From: Planctomycetota bacterium
Lineage (GTDB): Bacteria > Planctomycetota > Phycisphaerae > Phycisphaerales > Phycisphaeraceae
Reading direction: 5' to 3'
Assembly (NCBI GenBank): GCA_021413865.1
Contig: JAIOPN010000016.1
Coordinates: forward strand, 1 to 64,000
Length of the DNA: 64,000 bases
Each line of letters begins with the position of its first letter. Within the stretch, counting starts at the first letter, position 1. Positions 37,857 through 51,275 of the stretch are shown piece by piece. Under the pieces are notes generated by a model, which did not search any database, was not told the origin of the DNA, and saw only the letters and a program-made list of their open reading frames with translations. The translations under genes and the position numbers were made by a program.

Positions 37857-38663
37857 ATGGCAATCGTCGCACTCCACTCCGCGTCCACGGGCCTGTCGGC
37901 GCTGTCCACGAACATCGACGTCATCGCCAACAACCTGGCGAACGTGAACACCGCTGGTTTCAAGGCCAGCCGCGCCAACTTCGAGGACCTGCTCTACCAG
38001 ATGAAGCAGCAGCCGGGCGTGGAGACGGCCAGCGGCGACCAGCGCCCCGCGGGCCTGCAGGTCGGCATGGGGACGCGGATCAGCAACACGCAGTACGACT
38101 TCACCAAAGGCTCGCCGCAGATCACCGGCCGTCCCCTAGACCTGATGATCGACGGCAACGGCCTCTTCCGCGTCAGCATCCCGCCCGACCGCGGCAACGG
38201 TGTGGGCTACTCCCGCGCGGGCAATTTCTTCCTCAACTCCGACGGCGAGGTTGTCCTGGGCAACACCACCGGCTCCAAGCTCGACCCGCCCATCACCGTC
38301 CCGCAGGACGCGACGAACCTCACCGTCTCGGCCGACGGCATCGTCTCGGCGCAGCTCCCTGGGCAGACCACTTACTCGCAGCTCGGCCAGCTTCAGCTCG
38401 CCACGTTCGTCAACCCCAACGGCCTGCAATCCATTGGCGGCAACCTCTACATCGAGAGCGCCGCCTCCGGCCCGCCCATCGAGGGCACGCCGGCACAGGG
38501 CAGCTTCGGCAGCATCATCCAGAACGCCTTGGAATCCTCCAACGTCGATCCGGTCCACGAACTGGTGGACCTCATCAAGGCCCAGCGGGCGTTTGAGATG
38601 AACAGCCAGAGCATCCAGGTCGCCGACCAGACCCTGCAAGTGATCAGCAACCTTCGGAGGTAA
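37857..38663 (+). CDS. flgG: Flagellar distal rod protein FlgG
   Basis: Distal rod subunit, 268 residues, secreted through the flagellar export apparatus. It shows VIANNLANVNTAGFKASRANFEDLLYQ at the N-terminus, the FlgG-specific sequence RISNTQYDFTKGSPQITGRPLD, and the C-terminal motif LVDLIKAQRAFEMNSQSIQVADQTLQ. It follows flgF by 32 nt and ends 3 nt before flgA. Confidence 0.96.
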   Translation: MAIVALHSASTGLSALSTNIDVIANNLANVNTAGFKASRANFEDLLYQMKQQPGVETASGDQRPAGLQVGMGTRISNTQYDFTKGSPQITGRPLDLMIDGNGLFRVSIPPDRGNGVGYSRAGNFFLNSDGEVVLGNTTGSKLDPPITVPQDATNLTVSADGIVSAQLPGQTTYSQLGQLQLATFVNPNGLQSIGGNLYIESAASGPPIEGTPAQGSFGSIIQNALESSNVDPVHELVDLIKAQRAFEMNSQSIQVADQTLQVISNLRR

Positions 38664-38666
38664 CGC

Positions 38667-39869
38667 TTGAGCCTTAGGTTCACGAAAAAAAGTTGGTGGC
38701 GCGCCGCTCTGAAATGGGTGGCTGGGGCTGAGGCTTTGCGAAGCCCCGGTTCAGCGCACACGCAGACCGGGGCATCGAAGACTCTGCCCCAGCCACTCAT
38801 TGTTGCGGCCGCCTGGCTGCTGGCGGCGGTCTGTGCGACGGCGCACGCGGCGGAGATACGCCTGCGTGCGAGCGTGATCGCGGCCGGGCCGGAGGTGCGG
38901 CTGGGCGAGGTCGCGGACATCCAGGGCGCCGCCGCTGAGTCTCTCAGGGATGTGGTGGTCGGGAAGTTCGGCGGGGACGACCCGCAGGTGACGCTGACGC
39001 TGGCATCGGTGCGCGAGGCGCTCAAAGGCGAGGGCGTGAACTGGGGCCGTGTCTCGCTGGCGGGTTACGCCCAGTGCCGCGTCGAGCGTCTGCGGGAAAC
39101 AAAGGTTGAAGCGCCGGCCACGCAGCCCTCGGGCGACGCGGCGGCGGTGACCAACGCGACGGACGAGGTGGACCTGTCCACCCGCCTGACGCTGCGCGAC
39201 CGGGTGATCGACCGGTTGGCGCTGATGGTGGGTGCGGAGCGCACGGAGCTGCGCGTGGTCTTCGGCGCCGGGGACGAGAAGGCGCTGGCCACGCCGGCGG
39301 TGGGCGAGCGGTTCGAGATCGAGCCGCAGTCGTCGTCGGGGTTGGGCAGAGTGCCGATCGTGGTGCGTAAATGGACGGGCGACAGCCTGACGGAGGCGGC
39401 GCGGGTGACGGCGGTGGTGTCGCGGCGGGCGCTGGCGGTGGTGGCGGTCAAGCCGCTGCTGCGCGGCAAGCCGATCCCGGCGGACGCCGTCGAGGTGCGT
39501 GAGGTCTTCCTGGACCGCTCGGGGATGGACCCGATGACGCGGCTGTCGCTGGTGGTGGGGCAGGAGACGGTGTACCCGCTGCGCGAGGGGCAGGTGGTGC
39601 AGGCGTCGCACCTGAAGTCGCCGGTGGTGGTGGAGCGGGGGGACGTGATCGCCGTGCGCTGCGTGACCGGGACGCTGGTGGTCCGCACGTCGATGCGGGC
39701 GGCCGAGCCCGGCGCGGTGGGGCAGGTCATCACGGCCAAGGGTGAGAAGGCGCGGTCGGCGTCGGTGCGGGTCCGCGTCACCGGGCCGCAGGAAGGCGTG
39801 CTGGTCTCGTCGGGAGATTCGGACGCGCCGAGCACCGCGAAGCGGGGCGATGAAGGAGCCGGTTCATGA
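38667..39869 (+). CDS. flgA: Flagellar P-ring assembly chaperone FlgA, signal peptide interrupted by a repeat
   Basis: Periplasmic chaperone for P-ring (FlgI) assembly, 400 residues, longer than usual. A TTG start at 38667 has GGAGG 6 nt upstream. The first 16 residues are basic (MSLRFTKKSWWRAAL), the next 28 or so are encoded by an 84-bp dispersed repeat (38715-38798), and the hydrophobic core LIVAAAWLLAAVCATAHA with cleavage after AHA follows. The mature part contains SAF-like repeats, with KPLLRGKPIPADAVEVREVF and GQVVQASHLKSPVVV, and the end GPQEGVLVSS. No good start codon lies between the repeat and the hydrophobic core, so the repeat must be translated. The stop overlaps flgH (ATGA). 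Confidence 0.85.
   Translation: MSLRFTKKSWWRAALKWVAGAEALRSPGSAHTQTGASKTLPQPLIVAAAWLLAAVCATAHAAEIRLRASVIAAGPEVRLGEVADIQGAAAESLRDVVVGKFGGDDPQVTLTLASVREALKGEGVNWGRVSLAGYAQCRVERLRETKVEAPATQPSGDAAAVTNATDEVDLSTRLTLRDRVIDRLALMVGAERTELRVVFGAGDEKALATPAVGERFEIEPQSSSGLGRVPIVVRKWTGDSLTEAARVTAVVSRRALAVVAVKPLLRGKPIPADAVEVREVFLDRSGMDPMTRLSLVVGQETVYPLREGQVVQASHLKSPVVVERGDVIAVRCVTGTLVVRTSMRAAEPGAVGQVITAKGEKARSASVRVRVTGPQEGVLVSSGDSDAPSTAKRGDEGAGS
38715..38798. repeat. GGGTGGCTGGGGC dispersed repeat inside flgA
   Basis: The 84-bp element has ends GGGTGGCTGGGGC (38716-38728) and GCCCCAGCCACTC (38786-38798), and an inner pair AAGCCCCGG/CCGGGGC. It is nearly identical to 51191-51275 in the metG upstream region, including about 40 identical nt at the left end. 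Its length is a multiple of three and it has no stop in the flgA frame. Confidence 0.9.
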
Positions 39870-51120: not shown

Positions 51121-51190
51121 GGCGGGGCTCCGGTGGGGCGGACCATCAGGATAAGGTACTGCCCACGATCGGGTCGCGGCCTGTTTGAAA

Positions 51191-51275
51191 TGGGTGGCTG
51201 GGGCTGAGGCTTTGCGAAGCCCCGGCGCGGCGCCCGCAACAGACCGGGGCATCGAAGACTCTGCCCCAGCCACCC
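51191..51275. repeat. GGGTGGCTGGGGC dispersed repeat between heparinase-like gene and metG
   Basis: The 85-bp element has ends GGGTGGCTGGGGC (51192-51204) and GCCCCAGCCACCC (51263-51275) and inner pair AAGCCCCGG/CCGGGGC. It is nearly identical to the copy inside flgA at 38715-38798; the main differences lie in the central loop. It sits in the divergent spacer, 51 nt before metG. Confidence 0.9.

Follow-up and report, generated by a model that had tools for sequence, protein, structure and literature searches.

We consider it likely that a dispersed, non-autonomous hairpin element inserted, net in frame, into the codons of the signal-peptide n-region of the flagellar gene flgA, and that it survived there in a gene translated from the TTG codon at position 38667. 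The DNA analyzed, referred to below as the window, is a stretch of 64,000 nucleotides (G000:C13:1-64000) of the planctomycete genome G000; other G numbers denote relatives and L numbers denote loci. The genome (4.37 Mb in 67 contigs, 95.16% complete) looks like a metagenome assembly, and the closest relatives recovered with FlgG reach identities of 75% at most. A sequence-only reading of the window had noted the repeat within the open frame of flgA and a near-identical copy around 51 kb, both of which we confirm in the sequence. Its broader proposal, that a mobile palindrome became coding sequence for the FlgA signal peptide, very probably holds, judging from the test of start codons and the n-region lengths described below.

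The open reading frame of flgA (38667..39869, plus strand; 400 aa from a TTG start) directly follows that of flgG (37857..38663, plus strand). The C-terminal ..NLRR of FlgG is encoded by codons, CGG AGG, that hold the Shine-Dalgarno sequence of flgA (GGAGG, 38655..38659, plus strand), and this motif, or one like it, closes flgG ahead of flgA in most relatives. Both the operon position after flgG and the Pfam domains of the product (PF13144 ChapFlgA, 61.1 bits, residues 257-375; PF08666 SAF, 24 bits) identify it as FlgA, the P-ring chaperone. A FlgA search of the genome itself gave one match, and the best FlgA of a relative is only 43% identical. As translated from TTG 38667, the predicted n-region, from which the peptide SPGSAHTQTGASK is taken, starts outside the recognizable element (MSLRFTKKS.., 38667..38694, plus strand, the left limit coming from terminus scoring). 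It continues through a probable eroded left terminus, an IS1-type terminal inverted repeat of the carrier, for which the terminus score is only suggestive (38695..38709, plus strand), and through the palindromic repeat (38710..38798, plus strand, with the core at 38716-38798), delimited by alignment, fold and covariance model and predicted to encode ..KWVAGAEALRSPGSAHTQTGASKTLPQP.. of the n-region. The hydrophobic core of the signal peptide, located by hydropathy, and the c-region follow in the translation (LIVAAAWLLAAVCATAHA, before AEIRL; 38796..38849, plus strand). The arms of the outer stem lie at 38713..38736 and 38778..38801 (both plus strand) and form an inverted repeat with 88% complementarity. 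The repeat had originally been confined to 38715-38798; similarity to other copies begins further left, at TGAAATGGG (38710), and the probable remnant of the left terminus extends to 38695.

The second copy in the window lies between a minus-strand gene and a plus-strand gene, 67 nt from the gene call on the left and 53 nt from that on the right. The copy had been placed at 51191-51275, and its presence there stands; its extent is 51187..51275 (plus strand). The two window copies share an identical stretch of 34 nt on the right side and are 89% identical over 55 nt in the left part, the 51-kb copy being one base longer in the loop (direct-repeat spacings of 12476 and 12477). A search of the window with the right-arm 21-mer, allowing up to three mismatches, produced four matches versus 0.00 expected, two of them representing the opposite arm on the other strand. 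Single-strand folding of both copies is far better than that of shuffled sequences on both strands; for the hairpin of the flgA copy the z values are -9.85 and -7.66.

The window gives the impression of a two-copy repeat. The second copy is real, but genome-wide there are 34 full copies: a search of the own genome returned 35 long matches and shorter fragments, one of the long matches lacks the left arm, and the remaining 34 are distinct sites with the full core. The core alignment has 35 rows for these 34 sites, with the symmetrical copy L027 entered on both strands. Across the G000 copies the arms are nearly invariant, while the loop varies in both sequence and length. The core is 82 nt long in 21 of the 35 rows and 81 nt in 6, including the flgA copy; in the others it ranges from 79 to 89 nt. 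The arms of the flgA copy are identical or nearly so to those of other copies, and its loop sequence is unique to it. A covariance model, which includes this copy, matches it at 38716-38798 with 96.4 bits.

Copies in G000 show a strong bias toward the space between genes, because just one of the 34 distinct copies overlaps a gene call (L030, with a doubtful gene start) although genes predicted by a codon model trained on the window cover 83% of it; the flgA copy was judged separately. Many copies are found 10-40 nt from the end of a neighboring gene. REPs have been described near stop codons.

Whether the flgA copy is translated depends on where translation of flgA begins. The frame offers three standard starts, TTG 38667, GTG 38718 and TTG 38736, the latter two inside the repeat, and any of them makes at least 20 codons of the repeat coding. 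As first claimed, no usable start lies between the repeat and the hydrophobic core, ATG, GTG and TTG being absent there. The ideal Shine-Dalgarno sequence claimed for TTG 38667 is also borne out: its duplex with the anti-SD reaches -10.8 kcal/mol and unfolding takes 13.4 kcal/mol, which makes this by far the best start. The Shine-Dalgarno sequence is not independent evidence for it, since the same bases are codons of the conserved end of flgG. Initiation within the repeat, whereby the element would supply the start and most of the n-region, seems distinctly improbable to us. Both GTG 38718 and TTG 38736 are in frame, and TTG 38736 would leave an n-region of 21 residues, which is within the range of relatives; yet their duplexes reach only -1.5 and -5.4 kcal/mol, and unfolding would cost 45.5 and 46.0 kcal/mol, respectively.

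Another reading takes the repeat as an untranslated leader, with flgA starting after it and the hairpin serving in post-transcriptional control between flgG and flgA. It would agree with the location of nearly all other copies between genes, with the codon model, which begins flgA downstream of the repeat at GTG 38874 and does not call its first part coding, and with the suggestion, in the portions of PMC3733652 available to us, that many N-terminal REPs are possibly extragenic, with translation beginning downstream. However, GTG 38874 drops the signal peptide, which would be kept only with a start at ATT 38799 or at a CTG, the first of them being 38817; the duplexes are 0.5 kcal/mol for this ATT (with an unfolding cost of 35.9 kcal/mol) and -1.7 kcal/mol for this CTG. 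Relatives speak against a late start as well: in 23 of the 28 with the flgG stop located, the earliest candidate flgA start is 3-45 nt past that stop, as is TTG 38667, at 3 nt. We therefore regard an untranslated leader as unlikely.

N-region length points in the same direction as the start codons. The distance from the earliest start to the hydrophobic core is 44 residues in G000 versus 3-25 in 29 relatives, and 44 minus 28-29 residues falls within that range; thus, about 28-29 residues of the FlgA n-region look extra. Leaving out 87 nt (38710-38796) joins ..SWWRAAL to IVAAAWLLAAVCATAHA in frame and yields an ordinary signal peptide. The suggested comparison with relatives, which were expected to have a FlgA shorter by about 28 residues, thus came out as anticipated for n-region length, but with distant relatives (43% identity at most). 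The exact limits of the insert are not readable from the alignment because the nearest FlgA is only 43% identical, and neither the FlgA nor the covariance-model searches found another genome of the same genus (g1) that could provide an flgA without the insert. By eye, no such palindrome is seen in 12 planctomycete loci after flgG (L164-L175 of 80, about 167 nt each), and none of the relatives examined is a second species with the flgA insertion. The codon model gives no support for coding at the repeat, since it calls the start at GTG 38874. Start-codon logic together with the relatives indicates that flgA is very probably coding through the repeat.

The length of the flgA repeat, a multiple of three, had been seen as fitting selection for frame retention. 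We find no support for this: neither limit of the element is certain, most cores measure 82 nt, only 7 rows out of 35 have a length divisible by three, and five of its six frames lack a stop in the majority of copies (35 rows). Since so many frames are open and copies inserted out of frame would be lost, survivorship alone explains an in-frame survivor, and because the 51-kb copy is one base longer, the multiple of three is a property of the flgA copy and of the chosen limits. An adaptive insertion, with selection on the frame and with FlgA synthesis or targeting adjusted through the added residues or through the hairpin in the mRNA, is in our judgment quite unlikely. It could draw on the very stable hairpin (-64.5 kcal/mol), which begins about 46 nt past the start codon, and on the near-identity of the flgA arms to those of other copies. 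The latter, being shared with copies between genes, points instead to a recent insertion or a conserved element rather than to selection acting on the peptide; survivorship already predicts a retained frame, and the insertion is confined to one species among the relatives examined. A role of the hairpin in the flgFGA mRNA, such as ribosome slowing or stability, is possible as a conjecture. We conclude that the flgA insertion is probably tolerated rather than adaptive.

We also considered that a repeat copy might have been misplaced into flgA during metagenome assembly. A fragmented assembly (67 contigs) with many repeat copies is prone to raise this suspicion, but the flgG and flgA flanks are conserved operon neighbors, whereas a wrong join at a repeat would usually bring together flanks that do not belong to each other. 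In addition, no stop interrupts the frame at the junctions and the loop is peculiar to this copy, so that an artefact is highly improbable.

If the element was indeed inserted and is translated, the most likely course of events would be as follows. Transposition or a REPIN-type event would have spread copies to many sites, and one of them would have entered the n-region codons of the flgA signal peptide. With that copy open and net in frame, FlgA would still be translated from TTG 38667 and would keep its hydrophobic core and cleavage region while gaining about 28-29 residues before the hydrophobic core. Sec signal peptides accept additional residues in their n-region; tolerance of the added length would let the insertion survive, and the protein may be presumed to be made and exported, with the effect of the insertion close to neutral. 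More generally, gene-breaking copies would mostly be purged, leaving copies between genes and rare in-frame survivors where a protein can take them, for example in the n-region of a signal peptide, in a loop, in a linker or in a tail.

As for the means of dispersal, many G000 copies are extended outward by inverted termini, GGTAGTGNNNNNNTTTGAAAT and its complement, whose middle bases change jointly on both sides. The pattern of these termini, with up to two mismatches, occurs 53 times in the genome versus twice for a reversed control pattern. The same ends, GGTAGTG...CACTACC, are common to core-bearing copies and to a transposase-bearing, IS1-like element of 1,835 bp (L114:1173-3007, G000:C61) flanked by a perfect 8-bp duplication, TCAATGGT. 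Its transposase seems to be split over two overlapping minus-strand ORFs: one matches PF03400 DDE_Tnp_IS1 (E = 8e-5; 23.4 bits, just below the cut-off of 24.1), and a Pfam search with the other gave no match. Flanking 8-bp duplications with at most one mismatch accompany 10 of 25 end pairs, which include some cross-pairings of neighboring elements (e.g. 667 nt in L002), versus 4 of 600 cross-paired controls. Because of the shared termini and the 8-bp duplications, the core in G000 moves, in some cases at least, as an IS1-type miniature element. Target duplications were sought at core-only copies too; the matches were short, with inconsistent offsets, and were judged to be due to chance. The same ends also enclose seemingly unrelated palindromic cores (L095, L097, L098, L106, L111, L113, L118 and others), and the hairpin inserts of the GGTAGTG..CACTACC carrier look exchangeable.

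Shared ends and an 8-bp duplication, the marks of an IS1-family MITE, thus characterize the family of copies but not the flgA copy itself. The latter keeps TGAAAT beside the core, and the outer 14 nt of its left flank match the terminus at the exact expected offset (p = 0.0016) with a profile that excluded this copy; the scoring was run on all 35 rows, and several copies lack such a trace. A search for the right terminus at the flgA copy found none (best p 0.15), nor did a search for a flanking direct repeat or target duplication there. The simplest reading, for which these traces are suggestive, is that the flgA copy came in on a carrier whose right end has since been lost.

The core is not restricted to G000. 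A covariance model built from G000 and G009 detects it at E <= 1e-3 in 14 of the 51 family genomes, 12 of the 14 being independent of the model. It is mostly 81-82 nt long in G000 and about 100 nt in most relatives. Among the genome contigs searched, none outside the own genome contains the exact right-arm 28-mer. In G009, which belongs to another genus, the arms are the same, the loop is longer and the IS1-type termini are missing, suggesting that the core predates the carrier or at any rate does not depend on it. Three G009 copies (L271-L273) are single arms, and G010 has arm-like matches at the DNA level but none with the covariance model. Single arms (GGGTGGCTGGGGCTGCGTC...) are also closely clustered, as in REP clusters, in G022 (L146:397-580, G022:C458).

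A joint alignment of 12 G000 and 9 G009 copies folds into one long stem. Paired cells make up 94.7% and the covariation score is 0.166; none of the 500 shuffles and no slid control reaches either value. Cells with changes on both sides likewise outnumber those in 500 of 500 shuffles. Two other counts are not above shuffles, namely pairs with changes on both sides (4 of 25 versus a shuffled mean of 3.7) and further pair types (14 versus a shuffled mean of 14.1). The clearest exchange, U-A (11 sequences) versus C-G (9), follows the division between the genera and perhaps happened only once. Support for the hairpin from compensatory changes is modest.

Among the features that define REPINs, we find two conserved inverted ends with a less conserved spacer, a hairpin and an extragenic distribution. 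A RAYT gene with this REP at its sides was not found among 20 PF01797 loci (5 in G000 and 15 in five relatives) in flanks of about 1.5 kb each, shorter at contig ends. The 12-nt start of the arm occurs loosely once each in L079-L083 (up to two errors) and once in L150 (up to one error), and at these loci the rest of the arm never follows. Since the PF01797 genes are not flanked by the doublet in the flanks examined, we rejected a RAYT as a shown driver of the element, though one may still be involved. One of these genes (L079, G000:C56:3956-4300; Y1 transposase, PF01797, 100.9 bits) has a different palindrome, CCACGGGTGGAGCGGCGGCGTC.. and its complement, on its flanks and is possibly a RAYT with a repeat of its own.

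To see how often copies are read as protein elsewhere, 80 copies from 13 relatives' genomes were examined for reading frames that cross the repeat without a stop; this set leaves out G065:C26:23-123, G015:C27:52220-52302, the second G009 copy in L269 and some further G009 matches. The test flagged 11 open frames in 10 copies, and coding signal on both sides of the repeat is present in one of the 80 (L291). We took L291, L295 and L285 as coding. Six others (L262, L267, L286, L290, L344 and L345) were rejected because their coding signal is confined to the DNA beyond the repeat, the probable start of the gene, and so was a second frame of L291, which is antisense. In L313:1001-1100 (G064:C197:42117-42216), one frame is coding before the repeat and ends 14 nt after it, another stops inside the repeat, and the copy is possibly a further C-terminal tail. 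In-frame cases are accordingly rare, 4 taken as coding among 114 copies (34 in G000 and 80 in relatives).

In G064, the palindrome interrupts the central part of a TatD-family DNase without shifting the frame (L291:1001-1103; G064:C149:59232-59334), and the Pfam match of this protein falls into two stretches. Six TatD orthologues align on both sides of the site without the repeat, and G064 has an extra block at the element. The protein is 295 aa long in G064, versus 260 in G063, 267 in G019 and G066, 283 in G065, 266 in G009 and 257 in G000; G063, G065, G066 and G019, all repeat-free, belong to the same genus as G064. At the same loop, the TatD of G065 (L297, G065:C167:2192-3037) carries additional residues of another sequence, about SEKSEKGDKYLFLDQPDDKKGTYPLFPKA, perhaps another repeat. 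Because this different insert occupies the same place, the insertion site is a tolerant loop. The left arm is read in the same frame (V-A-G..) in the G064 TatD and in FlgA. The other two coding readings rest on their own sequences, the orthologue comparison covering TatD only. In G024, a copy read in another frame lies between a probable signal peptide and WD40 repeats (L295:1001-1128; G024:C107:193663-193790), so that the protein is probably secreted and the copy probably forms a linker after the signal peptide. In G065, a metallophosphoesterase ends in a C-terminal tail that is read from a copy (L285:1001-1102; G065:C190:3163-3264). In-frame insertions in unrelated conserved genes, as known for the palindromes of Rickettsia, are thus seen in flgA and TatD, with the linker and the tail added from their own sequences.

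In-frame palindromes as such are already known, from Rickettsia, from intragenic REPs and from a Yersinia MITE in a signal peptide. Rickettsia palindromic elements (RPE) are about 100-150 bp long, and some are in frame in genes for unrelated conserved proteins; in one tested enzyme with such an insertion, activity was kept and substrate affinity changed, according to the parts of these sources at hand (PMC2229807, PMC10969869). The present element is likened to RPE by description and not by sequence, in that palindromes lie in frame in unrelated conserved proteins. It differs in its planctomycete host and in that nearly all copies are between genes.

A REPIN, or REP doublet (BIME), consists of two conserved inverted arms and a less conserved spacer, forms a hairpin and has an extragenic bias, as described in the section of PMC3116915 consulted. 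Inverted arms, a variable spacer, a hairpin and an extragenic bias are all measured here. In contrast to REPINs that go with a RAYT, the doublet flanks none of the 20 PF01797 loci, and many G000 copies sit inside IS1-type ends with 8-bp duplications. We know of no REPINs that have such ends and duplications.

Bacterial MITEs have terminal inverted repeats, target duplications and a hairpin, and some give translated fusions; a Yersinia MITE is part of a predicted signal peptide at locus YPO1552 (PMC2229807, from the excerpt available). Like ERIC, YPAL, NEMIS and RUP, the present family has terminal inverted repeats, target duplications, a hairpin and some translated copies. Unlike them, it has an 8-bp duplication, IS1-type ends and a conserved inner core that also occurs without the ends in G009. 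Finally, GTAG/CGTC REPs are reported inside ORFs of various bacteria, including Verrucomicrobia, and relatively many are at N-termini (PMC3733652, in the portions seen). The flgA copy resembles them in lying inside an ORF and at its N-terminal end, but its arms begin GGGTGGC[T/C]GGGGC and have no GTAG or CGTC tag at the core end. N-terminal REPs are suspected in the same portions of PMC3733652 to be untranslated, whereas the flgA start codon argues for translation. These portions mention REPs of Planctomycetes, and a planctomycete in-gene case is not among them; at the level of titles and abstract openings, the literature yielded no description of in-frame palindromes in Planctomycetota. To the same depth of the literature, we found no precedent for the host lineage, for a REPIN-like core on IS1-type ends or for occupied and repeat-free TatD within one genus.

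Taken together, these comparisons lead us to a tentative proposal, held with less than even confidence, that the family has a counterpart of RPE, in which a REPIN-like palindrome, spread in part with IS1-type ends, is repeatedly translated in frame, in FlgA, TatD, a WD40 protein and a phosphoesterase. If true, the gain of peptide segments from small palindromes would extend to one more lineage, distant from Rickettsia. For flgA itself, a mobile planctomycete palindrome is very probably read as protein, and its site in the n-region would explain why it is tolerated. Repeats at the N-terminal end of an ORF should accordingly not be assumed untranslated by default. The FlgA and TatD cases would also make it testable, by pairs of occupied and empty orthologues, whether palindrome-derived segments are useful or merely tolerated.
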